A stretch of 13,108 nucleotides of DNA, from positions 1 to 13,108 of the forward strand of contig JASHXZ010000352.1 of the NCBI GenBank assembly GCA_030043285.1, in the 5' to 3' direction. Positions 4,962-13,108 of this stretch are shown here, piece after piece. Below the pieces are notes generated by a model. The model did not search any database, had not been told where the DNA came from, and saw only the letters and a program-made list of their open reading frames with translations. Position 1 is the first letter of the stretch. Each line of letters starts with the position of its first letter. This stretch comes from Xanthobacteraceae bacterium. Its GTDB lineage: Bacteria; Pseudomonadota; Alphaproteobacteria; Rhizobiales; Xanthobacteraceae. The position numbers were made by a program, and so were the translations under genes.

Positions 4962-5037
<76 letters not shown>

Positions 5038-5373: not shown

Positions 5374-6345
5374 TCAGCAGCCTATTCGCAAGTCGCCGAA
5401 GATGTTCTCGTCCACAGGAGCCAGTCTGGACATGCCCACGGCCGGATCGGACGGCGTGACGGCCGAACCCATGGTCGTCAACCTGAGCAGGCGCCGGACC
5501 TTTTCCTCCGACAGAGTTTTCGTAGTGCCGGAGTGCAGCAAACAATGATTGTCCCAGACCACAACGTCGTGCCGCTGCCATCGGTGTCGATAAACGAACT
5601 TTTCGCTGGTGATATGCGCGATCAGTTCGTCCACCAAGGCATTGCTGGCGGCTTCGTCCATCTCCGCGATACCTATGACGCTGCCGATGACCCGAGGCTG
5701 AAGGAACAAGGTTTCACGACCGGTGTCCGGATGGCGTCGCACCAGCGGATGCGTTATTTCCGGCGTCGCATCTCGTTCTTCCTGCCCGATATATTTCCAG
5801 CGCGCCCAAGGGTCATCTTTGTCCGGGGACCAGCGATATTGATGGCGAACGCGAAGCGTGCGCAGGTGTTGCTTCATCTTTTCCGGCAAGTCCTCGAACG
5901 CCGCCTCGGCGTCGGCGAACAACGTATCGCCGCCTTCATCCGGTATGTCGATGCCGAGCAACATCGTCGCGCTGGCCGGAACAAGCTTATAAGAATAATC
6001 GGAATGCCAACCGTCTCCGGAGTATTTCATGACCGGATTGCGGTCGAGCTCGTCCTGGTTCGATAGATACGTCAGCGTCGGCTCGTCGGGGTGCCGCAGC
6101 TTGATAACGTGATGCTGCTCTGGCTCGCCAAATACCCGACCGAACGCCGCAAATGTACGTGGCGACAAATCCTGATCATGCAGGACCAGCACCTTATGTT
6201 CCAGATAAAGCTCGTAGATCCATCGCTTGCGCTTCTTTATCGACTGTTCCGTTATCTCGAAACCAGCCAATTCGGCGGCAAACGTCGGCGCCAGCCGCTT
6301 AATCGTTGTGGCCTCGATGGCAATAGGTTTGCCCACAATATTCAC
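5374..6345 (-). CDS. TauD/TfdA-family Fe(II)/2-oxoglutarate dioxygenase
   Basis: Enzymes of this family hydroxylate small acids, sulfonates or amino acids, using O2 and 2-oxoglutarate; the substrate here is unknown. I place the start at the GTG at 6345, preceded by GGAGG and a six-base spacer. The frame is open further upstream to an ATG at 6462, but that part does not look like family sequence. This gives 323 residues, somewhat longer than E. coli TauD (283). The iron site is intact: WHSD with H114 and D116, and the distal H271 in LLHSGT. The 2-oxoglutarate-binding arginine is probably R288 in LLRLTT. GGDTLFAD at about 138-145 is typical for the family. It lies downstream of the PhyH-type gene on the same strand with a 132-bp gap, so the two are probably expressed together. 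It could hydroxylate or desaturate the same intermediate as its neighbour. Confidence 0.88.
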   Translation of the reverse strand: MNIVGKPIAIEATTIKRLAPTFAAELAGFEITEQSIKKRKRWIYELYLEHKVLVLHDQDLSPRTFAAFGRVFGEPEQHHVIKLRHPDEPTLTYLSNQDELDRNPVMKYSGDGWHSDYSYKLVPASATMLLGIDIPDEGGDTLFADAEAAFEDLPEKMKQHLRTLRVRHQYRWSPDKDDPWARWKYIGQEERDATPEITHPLVRRHPDTGRETLFLQPRVIGSVIGIAEMDEAASNALVDELIAHITSEKFVYRHRWQRHDVVVWDNHCLLHSGTTKTLSEEKVRRLLRLTTMGSAVTPSDPAVGMSRLAPVDENIFGDLRIGC

Positions 6346-6477
6346 GGTCGACCTCCGATCCACTCGATCTCGCCTTCCTGCCAGTGCCGGGGGTGATTGC
6401 TGCTGTGACACTGAAGCCGCGGCCTTCACGATCCAGGCGATTGCCGTGCCATCAGGGCGCAACTCCTCCGAACATGC

Positions 6478-7443
6478 TTACGCAACTTCCGTGGTCGCGG
6501 GCATCCTTCGTCTCTCGGGCGCCTTCGGGCCGGCCGGCGATACTGTGCGTTGCTCACGCGTCCGGTCGAAATATGGACTATCGAAGACGCGCTCGCCGTC
6601 GCGGGAACAGACAATTTCGTTGAAGTCGCTGCCGACGTCGTAATTGAATAGTCGCCGCGGCGTCGCCAATGCAGCAACGCGTTTCTGATCGTATCGCGCT
6701 TCAACCGAACAAAACCGGAGCGCATAGGCCAGACGCGATGGAATCGGCCCCTCTCCCAGCTTGATGCTTTTATGCAGCACATACTTGTCGAACAACAGCG
6801 CGTCGCCCACTTCGAAATCGTCCTCCACGGCGTAGAATTCGAGCACTTCGCGCATGCCTGGCGCGTTGAGCACGTCGTTTTTCTGCGCGTCGAATTCTGC
6901 AAATCCGTACGGTGCACCGCTTTTGATCTTGGCCTCGATGTAGTCCGGGAGCATGTTGATGTGCTGGTAGATGAACGCGCCGGAGAGCACGTCGGTGGGG
7001 ACATACGCCATGCCTCCCCGCTGGCCCTTGGCGTCGATCTTGCAAAGCGGAGTCCAGATCGTACAGGCGTAATCCTCGAGCCGCTGAAAGCCGAAGCTCT
7101 GGGTACCGACGTGCCACGGGAAGCCGGTGCTTTTGTTCTTCTCCAGCTCGAAGCCAAGACCCTGGGTGAAAAACAGCTTTTGGCCGGTCAGCTCGCTCAA
7201 GGCGGCGGCAAATCGTTCGTCCTTCATCAGGTCAAGGACATACGGATCATCGTTGCCGATATCGTATTTCAGCTTGCTGAAGCCGGTTCCATAATTGTCC
7301 GCCGGAGCCACCACCGCCGGCCGGCTCAAGCTGGCCATATGGTCGATGGTCTCCTGTGAAAATATCGAGCGCAGCTTTACAAAGCCGTGTTTTTTGAAGA
7401 ACGAGAGATCGTCACGGGTGACCTTGAATTTTTGCGACAGCAT
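6478..7443 (-). CDS. PhyH-like Fe(II)/2-oxoglutarate enzyme with HxG site, candidate halogenase
   Basis: A phytanoyl-CoA dioxygenase-superfamily protein. The start at 7443 (MLSQKFKVT) has AGGG five bases upstream; an in-frame ATG at 7461 would add six residues. With 321 residues, the proximal metal motif is FPWHVGTQSF: H111 is followed by V112 and G113 where hydroxylases have Asp or Glu. The rest of the fold matches: IWTPL at 129-133, GGMAYVP at 143-149 (cf. NGxLxVxPGSH), GDALLFDKYVLH with distal H224, and the 2-oxoglutarate-binding R237 in PSRLAYALRF. Loss of the carboxylate, as HxA in SyrB2 and HxG in WelO5 and BesD, frees a coordination site for chloride and defines this enzyme class. No carrier protein or NRPS is nearby, so a free-standing type acting on a small molecule would fit. 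An inactive or differently liganded homologue is the alternative. The C-terminal ~30 residues are polar and probably disordered. Confidence 0.8.
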   Translation of the reverse strand: MLSQKFKVTRDDLSFFKKHGFVKLRSIFSQETIDHMASLSRPAVVAPADNYGTGFSKLKYDIGNDDPYVLDLMKDERFAAALSELTGQKLFFTQGLGFELEKNKSTGFPWHVGTQSFGFQRLEDYACTIWTPLCKIDAKGQRGGMAYVPTDVLSGAFIYQHINMLPDYIEAKIKSGAPYGFAEFDAQKNDVLNAPGMREVLEFYAVEDDFEVGDALLFDKYVLHKSIKLGEGPIPSRLAYALRFCSVEARYDQKRVAALATPRRLFNYDVGSDFNEIVCSRDGERVFDSPYFDRTREQRTVSPAGPKAPERRRMPATTEVA

Positions 7444-7475
7444 TGTTGCCCTGCCCTTCATTCATTCAGCGGCGG

Positions 7476-7503: not shown

Positions 7504-7593
7504 CTCTCAACTTCGATAGGTGCCGTAGCCGCGCGCCGCGCAGTAAAAGCAATCACCCGTGGCAGCCGACGAATGTCCAGCGAGGTCCAAAAA

Positions 7594-8163
7594 ATGATCC
7601 GCACCGCCGAGATGGCCGACGCACCTGCGATGAAGCACATTGCGGCGCAGGCATATGACAAATACGTCGACCAACTTGACCAGCCCCCGCTTCCTCTTCT
7701 GCACGACTATGACGAAGTCGCACGAGCAGGCAACACTTACGTCCTGACCATAAGGCAGCAGGTCGTCGGCATGGTCACGTTTCTGAGCTACCCCGATCAT
7801 TTGTTGCTGAGAAACCTGGCCGTTCTTCCGGCGTATCAACGGCAGGGCCTGGGCCGGATGCTGGTCGATTTCGTCGAAGCCGAGGCGCGTCGGCGCAACC
7901 TCACGGAAGTAAGGCTCTGGACTCGCGAAGAGATGAGCGACAACATCCGGTACTATCAGGACCTTGGGTACAGCCTCACCAAGAAGGCGGTCGTGGACGG
8001 CTGCGGGCGCGTCTACTTCTGTAAAACCCTGCAAAACGCCAATGGCGACGCCGGTCATCGCGTCCTGTCGGAGCCGATCGCGCCGTCTCGGCGCCAAACC
8101 AAGCCCCAGCGCGCCGCAAAAAATGCCGGCGAGGGTCAAAGCAAAGCTCGTCAACGCGGCTGA
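7594..8163 (+). CDS. GNAT-family N-acetyltransferase
   Basis: Transfers an acetyl group from acetyl-CoA to an amine; the acceptor is unknown. The frame is open well upstream, but the start at 7594 (MIRTAEMADAPAM) is chosen because it is the usual family N-terminus and has GAGGT upstream of a seven-base spacer; an ATG at 7573 is possible. The 189 residues show the GNAT core: beta strand and QVVGMVTFL, LLRNLAVLPAYQRQGLGRML with the acetyl-CoA loop QRQGLG, EAEARRRNLTEVRLWT, and the closing NIRYYQDLGY motif. The last ~40 residues after FCKTL are a polar, basic tail outside the fold. It is divergent from the two dioxygenase genes and heads the plus-strand accessory genes. In a biosynthetic locus such an enzyme often N-acetylates the product for self-protection; that role is inferred. 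Confidence 0.9.
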   Translation: MIRTAEMADAPAMKHIAAQAYDKYVDQLDQPPLPLLHDYDEVARAGNTYVLTIRQQVVGMVTFLSYPDHLLLRNLAVLPAYQRQGLGRMLVDFVEAEARRRNLTEVRLWTREEMSDNIRYYQDLGYSLTKKAVVDGCGRVYFCKTLQNANGDAGHRVLSEPIAPSRRQTKPQRAAKNAGEGQSKARQRG

Positions 8164-8545
8164 GCACCTTGCACGCCGCATCGATGCGGCCTGGATCGCG
8201 ATACGGCTGAAGCCGTCCGTCACCGGCGCCGATTCACCACTGCCGAAATAGGCGGAACTAAGAAAGCCCAGCGCTCGACCAACCGCAGGCGTTTGAGCAA
8301 AAACACTTTCAAGGGCGCGCCAGCGCTGCTCGCCAAGGTTTTCTTCGCACCGTTTTCAGCTCGCCGTTTTCAGCTCACCAAGGCTATGTGAAATGATAGT
8401 TGTCGCATATAAAATTTCTTTTTAGGTTGACGCCTGTAAGCGCGCAATTACTTGCCTGAACACGCGAATCGAAGAGCGCGCCTGCCGTGCAGTTTCCGTG
8501 CTCGGTCTTCGTGGAGACCGGCATTGTCGCGAAACGGAGTCTATT
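8164..8545. other. Intergenic stretch between GNAT and M20 genes
   Basis: About 380 bp with no convincing gene. Just after the GNAT stop lie two palindromes: GCCGCATCGATGCGGC (8175-8190, perfect over 16 bp) and ACGGCTGAAGCCGT (8203-8216, perfect over 14 bp). They may end GNAT transcription, though no T-run follows. Further on is a 14-bp tandem duplication (8350-8377), then an AT-rich stretch around 8380-8430. TTGACG at 8427-8432 there might be a -35 box, but no good -10 lies at the right distance. The M20 operon promoter is presumably in this AT-rich part. Confidence 0.45.
8350..8377. repeat. 14-bp tandem duplication upstream of the M20 gene
   Basis: CCGTTTTCAGCTCG (8350-8363) is followed directly by CCGTTTTCAGCTCA (8364-8377), differing only at the last base. 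It looks like a simple slippage duplication. It lies about 170 bp upstream of the M20 start, so it could duplicate a regulator half-site, but nothing else supports this. Confidence 0.6.
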
Positions 8546-9946
8546 GTGAGTAGTCGAAATTCTCCGCAGAAGCCGGACCGAAAAACGGGTGCGCTTCTCA
8601 AAAGCCTGATTACATTCGACACATCCAATCCACCCGGCGATACCCGGGCACTTGCGCGTTTTTTGGCGACGCAATTCAAAATGCTTGGCGCCGAAGTGGA
8701 GATCGTGACCGCGCCGAACGAAAAAGCCGCTCATTTTTTCGCGCGACTGCGCGGCGACGGGTCGAAGAAACCGATCTTGCTTGCGGCGCACGCCGATGTG
8801 GTGCCGGTCGAGCGGCAAGTGTGGACTGTGGCGCCGTTCCTGGGCGTCGAAAAGGACGGCTTCATCTATGGGCGTGGCGCGCTCGATTTCAAAGGCGGCC
8901 TGGCGGTGTTCGCGCGAGCCGTGATGATGCTCGCCGAGCGGAAAGTGCCTTTGGCACGCGACGTGATCTTGCTTGCCGAGGCCGACGAGGAACAGGGCGC
9001 ATTCAATACCACGTGGCTCGCCAAGGACCACTGGGACAGCATGGACGCCGAATTCGCGCTGAACGAAGGCGGTTACATCTTCACGGATCTCGACTGCAAG
9101 GTCCGGCAGGTGAATATTACCGTCGCCGACAAGCTCTCGGTCACCTTGGCGCTGACGACGACGGGCCCCGCGGGTCATTCCTCTCGGCCGTTTCCCGTAG
9201 ACGACACGGCGACCGGGCGGCTGATTGCTGCGCTCGCAAGACTCAACGCGCACAATCCAAGAGTAAAGTTGGTGCGTGCCGCGGAAACGTATTTCAGGGC
9301 TCTTCTACCCATCAGCTCCGACAAAATGGCGGCGGACATCAGAGCCCTGCTGGATGCAGAAGATGAAGACGCTCGCGAGGCGGCTTGCCGGGGATTGACC
9401 GACAACACCATCAGGGGCGGACTGTTGCCCAACGCGCTGCTGCGCGACACGATGATGGTGACGGTTCTGGAATCGGGGAGCAAGCCAAACGTCATCCCGT
9501 CCGAGGCCAAAGCGATGGTGAACACCCGGCTGCTGCCAGGCACCAGGATTGAGGATATAATCCAGCAGATCAAAACGATCATTGACGATCCGCGCGTCGA
9601 GATCCGCATCGTCACGCCGATGAGTCAGGAAGAGGCGGCATCCCATTACCTGATGCGTACCCAGCTTCCGGAATCACCGGTTAATACGCCGCTCTACAGT
9701 GCGTTGCGCCGCAATGCAAAATGCGTTTGGCCGGAATCGACGATTGTTCCCACCATGTTCGAGGCCGGCACCGATGCAACGGCGTGGCGTGAGCGGAACG
9801 TTCCGGTCTACGGCGTCTATCCATATCCGATTGATGACGACGTGCTCAGCCGGATGCATGGTCCGGACGAAAAGATCGCCATGGAGGCGCTCGGTCAAGG
9901 CACCGAGTGGATCTACAACACGTTGCTCGAGGTGGCGGCGAAATAG
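8546..9946 (+). CDS. M20-family zinc metallopeptidase/deacylase
   Basis: Family members hydrolyse peptide or N-acyl bonds of amino acids (ArgE, DapE, carboxypeptidase G2, aminoacylase); which one applies here is not visible. I choose the GTG at 8546, with GGAG and a six-base spacer, over the GTG at 8498. This gives 466 residues without a signal peptide, so cytosolic. The two-zinc site is complete: H82 and D84 in AAHADVVP, bridging D114 in GRGALDFKGG, catalytic E148/E149 in AEADEEQGAF, E174 in ALNEGG, and H438 in RMHGPDE. The dimerisation (lid) domain lies between, with the conserved GPAGHSSRP at about residue 223. It begins the same-strand series peptidase, racemase, GGT-like enzyme, MFS transporter, with 72 bp to the racemase. 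It could remove an N-acyl group or release an amino acid from a peptide precursor, or serve peptide catabolism. Confidence 0.92.
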   Translation: MSSRNSPQKPDRKTGALLKSLITFDTSNPPGDTRALARFLATQFKMLGAEVEIVTAPNEKAAHFFARLRGDGSKKPILLAAHADVVPVERQVWTVAPFLGVEKDGFIYGRGALDFKGGLAVFARAVMMLAERKVPLARDVILLAEADEEQGAFNTTWLAKDHWDSMDAEFALNEGGYIFTDLDCKVRQVNITVADKLSVTLALTTTGPAGHSSRPFPVDDTATGRLIAALARLNAHNPRVKLVRAAETYFRALLPISSDKMAADIRALLDAEDEDAREAACRGLTDNTIRGGLLPNALLRDTMMVTVLESGSKPNVIPSEAKAMVNTRLLPGTRIEDIIQQIKTIIDDPRVEIRIVTPMSQEEAASHYLMRTQLPESPVNTPLYSALRRNAKCVWPESTIVPTMFEAGTDATAWRERNVPVYGVYPYPIDDDVLSRMHGPDEKIAMEALGQGTEWIYNTLLEVAAK

Positions 9947-10018: not shown

Positions 10019-10768
10019 ATGAAACAAAATCGGAAAAAGACAGTCGGCGTGCTCGGCGGCATGGGGCCCGTCGCCACGGCAAAATTCTTCCAACGGCTCG
10101 TCGAATTAACCCCGGCGAAAGCCGAAGCCGAGCACCTGCGGATCTTCGTGGACAACAATGTCGACATTCCGCCGCGCGCGCCGTTCTTCTTCAAGGGCGG
10201 GGCGAACCCGGTTCCGGGCATCGTAGCGGCAATAAATCAGCTGAGCGCCATTGGCGCCGATTTTGTTGTGCTGCCCTGCAATTCAGTTCACGTCTTTTAC
10301 GACGAGGTATCGCCGCAAATCACCATTCCGTGGTTGAGCATGGTGGACGCTGTTTCGCAGGATCTGGGAGCGTCCGGATTGGCAGCGCCGGTCATTCTGG
10401 GTGCCAGGGTTACGGTGCAGATGCGCTTGTACAGCCGGCTGCTTCCGCGGTGCGTCTACCTCGCGGAACCGACCTATAACTACGTGTATGAAGCGATAGA
10501 CCTGATAACAGCGAACCAGCGCGTTCCGGAACGGGTCATGAAGCCCATCGTTCAGGGCATATTGGACCATAGGCACCTGGCAGACGGCATTTTGCTGGCC
10601 TGCACCGAGCTTTCGCTGTGTGCCGACGACCTGAGAAAGCTCGGTCTTGCCGTGTTCGATTCCACCGAGATATACGCCGGACACACGGTCAAGTGCGCGC
10701 TGGGGACGAGCTCCGCGGGATGCGCCGTTCCGAACAGAGAACTCGGGCAGCAAGCCGTGAACGGATAA
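10019..10768 (+). CDS. Aspartate/glutamate racemase family protein
   Basis: A cofactor-independent, two-cysteine amino acid racemase of the aspartate racemase (RacD/YgeA) branch. The 249 residues begin with TVGVLGGMGPVAT at about 8-20, the family signature. Both catalytic cysteines are present: C87 in LPCNSVH and C195 in LACTELSL. FVDNN at 43-47 belongs to the substrate pocket, and the length is normal for the branch (230-250). The ATG at 10019 lacks a strong ribosome binding site, but the signature starts right after it. The C-terminal 30 residues after FDSTEIYAGHTV diverge from the core fold. With the flanking M20 and GGT-type genes it suggests handling of acidic amino acids, possibly supplying a D-amino acid. 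Hydantoin or maleate-type relatives lack this exact pair of motifs, so a racemase is the best call. Confidence 0.9.
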   Translation: MKQNRKKTVGVLGGMGPVATAKFFQRLVELTPAKAEAEHLRIFVDNNVDIPPRAPFFFKGGANPVPGIVAAINQLSAIGADFVVLPCNSVHVFYDEVSPQITIPWLSMVDAVSQDLGASGLAAPVILGARVTVQMRLYSRLLPRCVYLAEPTYNYVYEAIDLITANQRVPERVMKPIVQGILDHRHLADGILLACTELSLCADDLRKLGLAVFDSTEIYAGHTVKCALGTSSAGCAVPNRELGQQAVNG

Positions 10769-11034: not shown

Positions 11035-12822
11035 GTGCAACAGAACCAATATTCGACGCGTCAGGAACTTTCCGGCACGTTCGGCACCGCCTCCTCAACC
11101 CACTGGATCGCCACCCAAATAGGAATGAGCATCCTGGAGCGTGGCGGTAATGCGTTCGATGCGGCAGTCGCCATGGCATTTACTCTCCACGTCGCCGAGC
11201 CTCATCAAAACAGCCTTGGCGGCGAAGTGGTGATGCTCATCCGGCCGGCTGGCGCGTCGGCTCCACGCGTTGTATGCGGCCAGGGTGTCGCGCCGGCAAA
11301 AGCGACGATTCCTCACTTCAGATCTCTCGGTTTGGAGCTGATCCCGCCCAATGGGCTGTTGCCTGCAGTCGTGCCGGGTGCATTTGACGGCTGGATGCTG
11401 ATGTTCCGAGACTATGGAACGCTGCCGCTCGAAACGGTCCTCGAGCCCGCTATCGCGTATGCAGCCAAAGGCATTCCACTCCTGACCGAGGCGAAGCTGC
11501 GCATCGACAAGGCGGCGGCGCTGTTCAGGGAGCATTGGACGTCCTCCGCACGAATTTACCTCCCGGGAAATTGCACGCCCGACGCCGGCGACCTGTTCCG
11601 CAATCCCGAGCTGGCGGAGACCTTTCAAAGGATATTGCGTGAAGCCAACAGCGCCGGCGGCGATCGGACCCGGCAAATTGAAAAGGCTCGCAAGGCCTTC
11701 TACGAAGGCTTCGTGGCGGAGCAAATCTGCAAGTTCTGCGCCCAGACCGCCGTCTGGGATGCAAGCGGCACAGCGCACACCGGATTGCTGGATTTAGAGG
11801 ATCTGAGCTCCTGGCACGCCACTTATGAAGAACCGGCTGCGGTAGACTTTTGCGGTTTTCGCGTGTTCAAGCCCGGTATTTGGACGCAAGGCCCCGCTTT
11901 CTTGCAGTTTCTTGCGCTTGTGAGCGGTCTTGATCTTTTCGCCCTCAATCCGTTCGAAGCCGAATACATCCACTTGGTCGTCGAGGCCTTTAAGCTCGCC
12001 TACGCGGATCGCGAGGCCTGGTGCGGAGATGCGGAACGCAACGACGCCTTGGTCCCGGCGCTGCTGGCGGCCGATTACATCGCCGAACGAAGACGTCTCA
12101 TTGCATCCGACGCGTCGCTGGAGCTTCGGCCCGGAAGTATCTGCAATCGCCCGCCGCGCTTGCCCCGCTTCGCCGTCAACGTTTCAGGAGGTCTTGGCGA
12201 ACAGCTGCCGCCGCTCGTCTCCGCCGTTCCGTTCGGCGAGCCCGGAGCAGGTGACACATGTCACCTCGATGTAATCGACCGTTGGGGCAACGTGGTCGCG
12301 GCGACGCCTTCCGGCGGCTGGTTCTGGGGTTCTCCCGCGATTCCCGAACTTGGTTTCTCGCTCAATACCCGCGCCCAAATGTTCTGGTTGCAGGAGGATC
12401 TGATGTCCAGCCTGGCGCCGCGAACGCGCCCCCGCACCACGTTGTCGCCGACGATTGCGCTCAACGAAGATCACGCCATCGCGTTCGGGACTCGCGGCGC
12501 GGATTACCAGGATCAGTGGAGCGCGCAGTTCCTTCTCCATCACCTGGGATTTGCCATGGATCTTCAGGCGGCTTGGGACGCGCCCAACTTCCACAGCGAT
12601 CATTATCCGCGATCCGATTTTCCGCGGGATGCCTCGCCGGGGAAGCTGACGCTCGACCAGCGCTATGGCGACGCGACCGCCGACGCTCTGCGCAAGCGAG
12701 GCCACACGGTGGGCCTGCACCGGGGCCGACGCGGGCGGGGTTGTGCTGCGAAGAAAAGCGCCTTACTGTTGCGGGCGGCTGCATCCTCGTCAGTGCCGGC
12801 ATCCTTGGCTCTTGCGCGCTGA
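11035..12822 (+). CDS. Gamma-glutamyltransferase-family Ntn hydrolase with disordered 3' end
   Basis: GGT-family precursors cleave themselves before a threonine that becomes the nucleophile for gamma-glutamyl (or acyl) transfer and hydrolysis. The start is the GTG at 11035 with GAGGAG seven bases upstream. In 595 residues the fold is clear: ERGGNAFDAAVAMAF at 35-49, NSLGGEVVMLI at 59-69, AVVPGAFDGW at 111-120, YADREAWCGD at 323-332, then GDTCHLDVIDRWGN with probable nucleophile T408. Then come RTTLSPT at 467-473, the TT replacing the Ser-Ser oxyanion pair of E. coli GGT, and FGTRGADYQDQW. No signal peptide is visible, unlike periplasmic GGTs. After LRKRGHTVGL (about residue 561) the usual tail (roughly LRAAANPRGMQGYAxGR) is scrambled: fragments appear in different frames, as from small indels. 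It follows the racemase by 266 bp. True gamma-glutamyl specificity is uncertain. Confidence 0.85.
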   Translation: MQQNQYSTRQELSGTFGTASSTHWIATQIGMSILERGGNAFDAAVAMAFTLHVAEPHQNSLGGEVVMLIRPAGASAPRVVCGQGVAPAKATIPHFRSLGLELIPPNGLLPAVVPGAFDGWMLMFRDYGTLPLETVLEPAIAYAAKGIPLLTEAKLRIDKAAALFREHWTSSARIYLPGNCTPDAGDLFRNPELAETFQRILREANSAGGDRTRQIEKARKAFYEGFVAEQICKFCAQTAVWDASGTAHTGLLDLEDLSSWHATYEEPAAVDFCGFRVFKPGIWTQGPAFLQFLALVSGLDLFALNPFEAEYIHLVVEAFKLAYADREAWCGDAERNDALVPALLAADYIAERRRLIASDASLELRPGSICNRPPRLPRFAVNVSGGLGEQLPPLVSAVPFGEPGAGDTCHLDVIDRWGNVVAATPSGGWFWGSPAIPELGFSLNTRAQMFWLQEDLMSSLAPRTRPRTTLSPTIALNEDHAIAFGTRGADYQDQWSAQFLLHHLGFAMDLQAAWDAPNFHSDHYPRSDFPRDASPGKLTLDQRYGDATADALRKRGHTVGLHRGRRGRGCAAKKSALLLRAAASSSVPASLALAR

Positions 12823-12937: not shown

Positions 12938-13108
12938 ATGAGCTTCCGCCGGCGATTTGGGACGATCGGCTCCGCCGCGCGACGCAACCTCGCCGGCTAC
13001 ACGTCTGCGCACATCGATTATCGCCTTTTAGTTCCGCTGCTCATCAATTCGGTGCTGTTCCAAGTGGTGATTACGCTGGCCCGGCTGATGACCTCGTATC
13101 GCGCGCTG
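12938..13108 (+). CDS. MFS transporter, N-terminal 57 residues (cut by right edge)
   Basis: The last 171 bases are open from an ATG at 12938 and encode 57 residues. After a basic N-terminus (MSFRRRFGTIGSAARRN), a hydrophobic segment at about 34-52 (LLVPLLINSVLFQVVITLA) looks like the first transmembrane helix. The following RLMTSYRAL is the turn typical of one group of MFS permeases, which reads about R-x-T-S-Y-R-A-L. The frame is also open upstream into the end of the GGT-type gene, and no clear ribosome binding site precedes the ATG, so the start is uncertain. Its position at the end of the plus-strand series would suit an exporter or importer for the compound handled by these genes. Confidence 0.6.
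   Translation, partial: MSFRRRFGTIGSAARRNLAGYTSAHIDYRLLVPLLINSVLFQVVITLARLMTSYRAL

Follow-up and report, generated by a model that had tools for sequence, protein, structure and literature searches.

The 13,108-nucleotide stretch of Xanthobacteraceae DNA analyzed here (the window; contig JASHXZ010000352.1 of assembly GCA_030043285.1) encodes on its (-) strand, at 6478-7443, a 321-residue candidate Fe(II)/2-oxoglutarate (2OG) halogenase with the PhyH fold, identified from its translation, its homologues, Pfam and a structural model. The explanation we favor, with somewhat better than even confidence, is that it is a carrier-independent aliphatic halogenase acting on an N-acetylated amino acid, glutamate being the leading candidate, and that its gene resides on an island at a tRNA-Ala gene. 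This explanation draws on the conservation of the HxG motif, kinship with halogenases, conservation of the gene cluster and a break in synteny, all established by computation. Its parts differ in strength, as a matter of judgment and not of calculation: that the protein halogenates is very likely from its sequence, that the substrate is of amino-acid type is probable, and that it is glutamate or N-acetylglutamate is a tentative proposal.

Translation of the gene gives PWHVGTQSFG at residues 109-118, followed by His224 and Arg237. The codons of H111-V112-G113, which form the HxG iron/halide site according to the translation and the homologue alignment, lie at 7105-7113, that of the distal iron ligand His224 at 6772-6774, and that of Arg237, which we take from family knowledge to bind 2OG, at 6733-6735 (all on the (-) strand). 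An in-frame ATG at 7461, 18 bases upstream, provides an alternative start. When the window protein was aligned with its 70 closest listed homologues (P0003-P0072), His111, Val112, Gly113 and Arg237 were present in all 71 rows and His224 in 70, the remaining row being aligned with Pro at that position. Translation and alignment thereby bear out an earlier note, made from the DNA alone, which had read WHVGTQSF with Gly at the Asp/Glu position, together with His224 and Arg237, and had proposed checking HxG among homologues. By the same alignment Gly113 is conserved across the clade, and a sequencing error or chance occurrence is ruled out by HVG in 71/71 rows.

The protein matches PF05721 (PhyH) with 24.3 bits, just over the cut-off of 22, and its sole NCBIfam match is TIGR01762, the model for SyrB2-type chlorinating enzymes, with 21.5 bits against a cut-off of 226.3. 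SyrB2-type enzymes share the same Fe/2OG logic with Asp replaced, and they need a carrier-bound substrate. An AlphaFold model (pLDDT 88, pTM 0.87) matched Fe/2OG enzymes in a fold comparison, with the CurA halogenase domain (PDB 3nnf, others) ranked first. In sequence alignment both CurA and BtnX (PDB 9pv1, 9q04) read WHVG where the window protein has WHVG, and this alignment suggests that no other carboxylate enters the iron site. The window protein combines the fold with the HxG motif and distal His of Fe(II)/2OG aliphatic halogenases. The halogenase reading of the earlier note is supported by the clade-wide HVG and by the fact that both convincing solved relatives are named halogenases; of the structural comparison it proposed, the model and its best match to CurA agree with that reading, whereas the nearest kin appear to be CurA and BtnX, in place of SyrB2, WelO5 and BesD.

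Most such halogenases require a carrier-bound substrate according to a passage of PMC8407142, in which CurA is listed as acting on a hydroxymethylglutaryl compound. This glutaryl-type substrate, also a five-carbon diacid chain, can be likened to the one proposed for the window protein, but CurA acts on it in carrier-bound form (same passage), whereas the window protein stands alone: none of the 10 matches to the carrier domain PF00550 in this genome, which is 66% complete, falls on the window contig, which ends at 13108. In this respect the absence of a nearby carrier protein agrees with the earlier note, and a parallel in functional logic is the BesD lysine halogenase family, described in the same source (PMC8407142) as halogenating an amino acid without a carrier. 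Taken together, the sequence comparisons place the protein as a candidate carrier-free halogenase of the CurA/BtnX lineage in a clade of its own.

The gene is not isolated, as the earlier note had pictured it, and is part of a conserved cluster on an apparently acquired island. Downstream on the same strand lies its conserved partner, a TauD/TfdA dioxygenase (5374-6345, (-)) with an intact H114-S-D116 motif, for which a GTG start at 6345 is assigned (the longest open reading frame, ORF, begins with TTG at 6462). Divergent from the halogenase on the (+) strand are genes for a GNAT N-acetyltransferase (7573-8163), an M20 metallohydrolase/deacylase (8498-9946; PRK09133-like, under the cut-off of that model), an Asp/Glu-type amino acid racemase (10019-10768; TIGR00035, over cut-off) and a gamma-glutamyltransferase (GGT) family protein (11035-12822; by family match, with the 93% identical homologue P0225), followed by the first 57 codons of a further ORF with no Pfam match that is cut by the contig end (12938-13108). 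The N-acetyltransferase, M20 hydrolase, racemase and GGT give contextual support to an amino acid or peptide substrate, as previously suggested, and further support comes from the ArgE-like deacetylase and ATP-grasp amino-acid ligases of the Streptomyces clusters described below.

Linkage of the TauD and halogenase genes was assessed by taking exactly equal contig sizes in the two homologue lists as a proxy for the same contig. By this proxy, 25 of 54 TauD homologues with at least 64% identity share a contig with one of P0003-P0072 (25 of 39 when only contigs of at least 3 kb are considered), compared with 0 of 33 at 50-63% identity and 0 of 14 below 50%. The halogenase homologue P0003 (90% identity) and the GGT homologue P0225 both lie on a contig of 137,424 bases, so the window arrangement is probably present in a second genome; no TauD homologue on a contig of that size was found among the matches listed.

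Seed proteins were compared with the ORFs of loci L001-L058 (58 in all). Nine loci belong to the window clade, and six of the nine (L002-L006 and L055, from Streptomyces and Kitasatospora) carry a full cluster in the order halogenase, GNAT, TauD, ArgE-like M20 enzyme, 469-residue protein, ATP-grasp protein resembling L-amino-acid ligases and Na/H antiporter. In L002-L006 the ArgE-like gene is followed by one for an MFS transporter. The window shares with these clusters the halogenase, TauD (68-71% identity, HSD kept) and GNAT (44-47% identity to the cluster GNATs of the six loci), while its M20 enzyme is from another subfamily and perhaps takes the role of the ArgE-like enzyme. GNAT and TauD are fused into one protein in L055, and two more fusions are indicated by Pfam domains (P0145, P0177). 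The ATP-grasp protein of L004 scores over the cut-off for PRK07206 and reaches 200 bits against DdaF, under the cut-off of 840. L055 encodes one protein like glutamate racemase (109 bits against a cut-off of 147) and another like dipeptide epimerases, and L007 encodes a 47% relative of the former; across the window, L055 and L007 the racemase appears from sequence to be a recurring enzyme class and not an orthologue.

Two further features of these loci merit mention. The 469-residue protein (L004:15398-16807 and relatives; P0123) is 72-79% identical over five cluster loci. It is unmatched in Pfam and NCBIfam, and its PDB matches are weak (E 0.23 and 0.39); it may resemble permuted ATP-grasp ligases. 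Streptomyces cyaneus has two clade members, the second of which (L007, motif HVGNKSFG) neighbors a protein weakly like radical SAM enzymes, three ATP-grasp proteins and the glutamate-racemase-like protein.

Two Fe/2OG enzymes accompanied by an N-acetyltransferase and a deacylase suggest that an amino group is protected and later freed, and from this we infer chlorination, an order of steps, a substrate and a product as follows. Replacement of the metal-binding carboxylate by Gly113 would leave the iron site open for chloride and, as in the known family, O2 and 2OG would generate a chloro-ferryl species that takes hydrogen from an sp3 carbon and returns chlorine. The GNAT would acetylate the amino acid, the N-acetylated form being the most likely substrate of the halogenase; after chlorination the partner TauD enzyme would oxidize or desaturate the product, and the M20 hydrolase would remove the acyl group. 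With glutamate as the substrate, the pathway would yield a 3-chloro-(dehydro)glutamate resembling an amino acid that Streptomyces xanthocidicus is reported to produce. A narrower version, which we consider rather doubtful, is that a streamlined cluster in which the racemase and GGT replace the dipeptide ligases was transferred horizontally into this unrelated genome at the tRNA-Ala and makes a free or gamma-glutamylated chloro-amino acid. Since mutants of glutamate racemase can eliminate HCl from 3-chloroglutamate (a passage of PMC8142540), the nearby racemase could conceivably serve tolerance or processing.

The link to a known product runs through a passage of PMC8659048, in which a chlorinated amino acid, whose name there we read as 3-chloro-3,4-didehydroglutamate, is reported from S. 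viridogenes and also from S. xanthocidicus, with two papers on FR-900148 cited. S. xanthocidicus corresponds in taxonomy to Kitasatospora xanthocidica, and strain JCM 4862 of this species is our locus L002, where the halogenase-GNAT-TauD-ArgE-ligase cluster is present, its halogenase being 65% identical to the window protein; the window has its halogenase, TauD and GNAT and not its ligases. FR-900148 is a valyl dipeptide of the chlorinated amino acid, so a DdaF-like ligase would fit. Seven PhyH matches were found in the K. xanthocidica genome, of which six are HxD by eye and the cluster protein alone is HxG. A search for PF04820, a family also matched by 5 of 14 control genomes, gave six matches there. 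One of them is a strong flavin-halogenase match, which leaves the cluster halogenase as a good candidate for the chlorinated product, though not the sole one. TIGR01762 is unmatched in K. xanthocidica, which is uninformative because the control genomes are also blank, and PF10014 is unmatched there and matched in 1 of 14 control genomes. The literature searched, outside of which most subscription journals lie, yielded no gene cluster for FR-900148, and a literature search on an acivicin-type product gave nothing useful.

Several observations, including this flavin-halogenase match, weigh against the favored explanation. The connection to FR-900148 is by species only, and JCM 4862 may differ from the producer strain. 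ATP-grasp ligases are absent from the window and none was found elsewhere in the 66%-complete genome, where an empty search alone shows little. The window M20 enzyme has only 37% identity over 81 residues to the ArgE-like enzyme, the window racemase does not match those of L055 and L007 at 1e-5 (at best 23% over 167 residues, E 0.009), and the window GGT is matched in one other locus only, L042, outside the clade. The clade Streptomyces loci L007 and L008 lack GNAT and TauD, with a weak M20 match in L008 and none in L007, so substrates may differ within the clade; both have ATP-grasp ligases and the Na/H antiporter. Lastly, the ArgE-like kinship in Streptomyces could equally be compatible with N-acetylornithine.

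This last point leads to the strongest alternative, which we nevertheless regard as unlikely, namely that the enzyme halogenates some other amino acid, for example N-acetylornithine or lysine. The true substrate would then be indicated by the ArgE-like enzyme, and the connection with K. xanthocidica would be coincidental. Consistent with this alternative, the M20 protein of L004 passes TIGR01892 (acetylornithine deacetylase; 324 bits against a cut-off of 297.7), that of L055 is annotated argE, and a LysE-type exporter directly adjoins an HIG halogenase in 10 of the 58 loci, all outside the window clade. Set against this are the reported K. xanthocidica product, a chlorinated five-carbon amino diacid (PMC8659048, in the passage cited above), the Asp/Glu-type racemase and GGT of the window, and the glutamate-racemase-like protein of L055. 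The LysE-adjacent loci (L009, L015, L016, L018, L020, L021, L022, L054, L057 and L058) are from Pseudomonas, Pantoea, Acinetobacter, a cyanobacterium and others, and other HIG loci are without the exporter; this two-gene unit may serve to produce a halogenated amino acid and to export it.

A second alternative, less likely still, is that the HxG enzyme does not halogenate in vivo and is a two-His hydroxylase, desaturase or epimerase, in the manner of AspH, or a user of another anion. AspH carries HXG...H yet hydroxylates, and FIH with Asp replaced by Gly retains some activity (a passage of PMC10947486), so HxG alone is no proof of halogenation, which also counts against the favored explanation; in an excerpt of a 2026 preprint (PMC12871659), HXG/A is taken as a mark of halogenation. 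Within the family itself, HxG alternates with HxE/HxD. In a census of 179 rows, comprising the best 120 of the 245 homologues, locus ORFs of at least 200 residues and the BtnX and CurA stretches, the motif was HVG in 120, HIG in 34, HIE in 22, HVD in 2 and HVE in 1. A tree of 107 rows was built by a quick method with the motif residue masked, its root being unsure because CurA, the outgroup, is represented by a fragment and has a very long branch. The window protein falls in a 62-row clade that is HxG throughout (SH-aLRT 98), BtnX belongs to a separate group, and 14 HxE rows form a clade (support 89) nested next to HIG rows, such that at least three changes between HxG and HxE/HxD are needed (L045 was left out of the tree). 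Against a non-halogenating role for the window protein are the invariance of HVG across the 71 rows, the naming of both convincing solved relatives as halogenases, one of them solved with chloride, and the presence in the cluster of a separate HxD oxygenase, TauD.

The HxE/HxD members within this HxG family (25 of 179 rows: L012, L017, L025, L033, the second copy in L042, L045, and 19 of P0084-P0120) are, as judged from the alignment, natural iron-ligand switches, useful for the study of chlorination/hydroxylation interconversion. Tandem family copies occur as HVG then HVD in L042 (9920-12120) and as HVG and HVG in L034 (8934-10990) and L038 (8618-10674), and relatives of 43% identity are found on large plasmids of two Klebsiella isolates (NZ_CP042531.1, NZ_CP044049.1).

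It is very improbable that the window protein is a second biotin halogenase, even though BtnX, which is known here by its PDB name alone and for which no paper was found in the literature searched, is its closest solved sequence. BtnX resembles the window protein in near-full-length similarity, WHVG and free-standing form, at about 39% identity as measured via its 95% relatives L030/L031. It is, however, 95, 95, 80 and 78% identical to L031, L030, L027 and L026, all beside BioY/ECF genes, while the window clade is separate, its context is an amino-acid-type cluster and BioY is matched in 0 of 9 clade loci. In addition, 41 positions (one a gap) distinguish residues held in over 90% of 79 clade rows from those in over 80% of 6 BtnX-group rows, for example Q94/F, G95/E, D124/E and D219/N. 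On clade, gene context and residue differences, BtnX-like biotin chlorination was set aside. BtnX is missing from the fold matches of the model, which is uninformative because the library compared ends in April 2026. In the BtnX-type loci L026, L027, L030, L031 and L056 the halogenase adjoins BioY and two ECF transporter genes, an arrangement that in roseobacters also occurs on a plasmid.

In this genome the halogenase cluster was very probably acquired horizontally, as indicated by gene content, synteny and base composition. Among 391 genomes of the family the halogenase occurs only in its own, apart from one other with a weak match (23% identity over part, E 4e-4), and it is present in 1 of 61 genomes of the relatives set, again its own. 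The genes cmk, aroA, the next gene and tRNA-Ala (GGC; 4962-5037, (+)) are syntenic in six congeners (L080-L085), where conservation of the gene between aroA and the tRNA rests on DNA alignment; the names rpsA, cmk, aroA and FYDLN/TIGR02300 are presumed by us from the sequences and not from a family search. In all six, DNA similarity ends between 5037 and 5040, at the 3' end of the tRNA, which is the likely integration point, and the island genes have a G+C content of 57-62%, compared with 64-66% ahead of the island. The island proteins are unmatched in the six congener stretches, which cover about 1 to 13 kb past the tRNA. The island seems to have integrated at tRNA-Ala; a search of the genome for a further copy of the tRNA 3' end, as an attachment repeat, matched only the tRNA itself, no integrase was recognized, and the contig ends within the island. 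Upstream, a zeta-toxin/AAA-like protein (1895-2794) and an 80-residue ORF lie between cmk and aroA; the two flanking regions are contiguous in the six congeners. That the cluster is a broken or unexpressed remnant is the least probable alternative, for although the island is cut by the contig end and searches of this genome gave none of the Streptomyces cluster ligases, all six cluster ORFs are open, with same-length homologues of the halogenase, TauD and GGT at 90, 98 and 93% identity.

Few halogenases act on free small molecules, and those that do are useful for selective C-H chlorination. The 71 listed clade sequences (the window protein included) with invariant HVG, the examined members of which are mostly in an amino-acid-type cluster, would constitute a new and testable substrate class. 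If glutamate is indeed the substrate, the clade would point to the genes that make a chlorinated amino acid antibiotic known from reports of the 1980s, and this testable link is the part most worth following.
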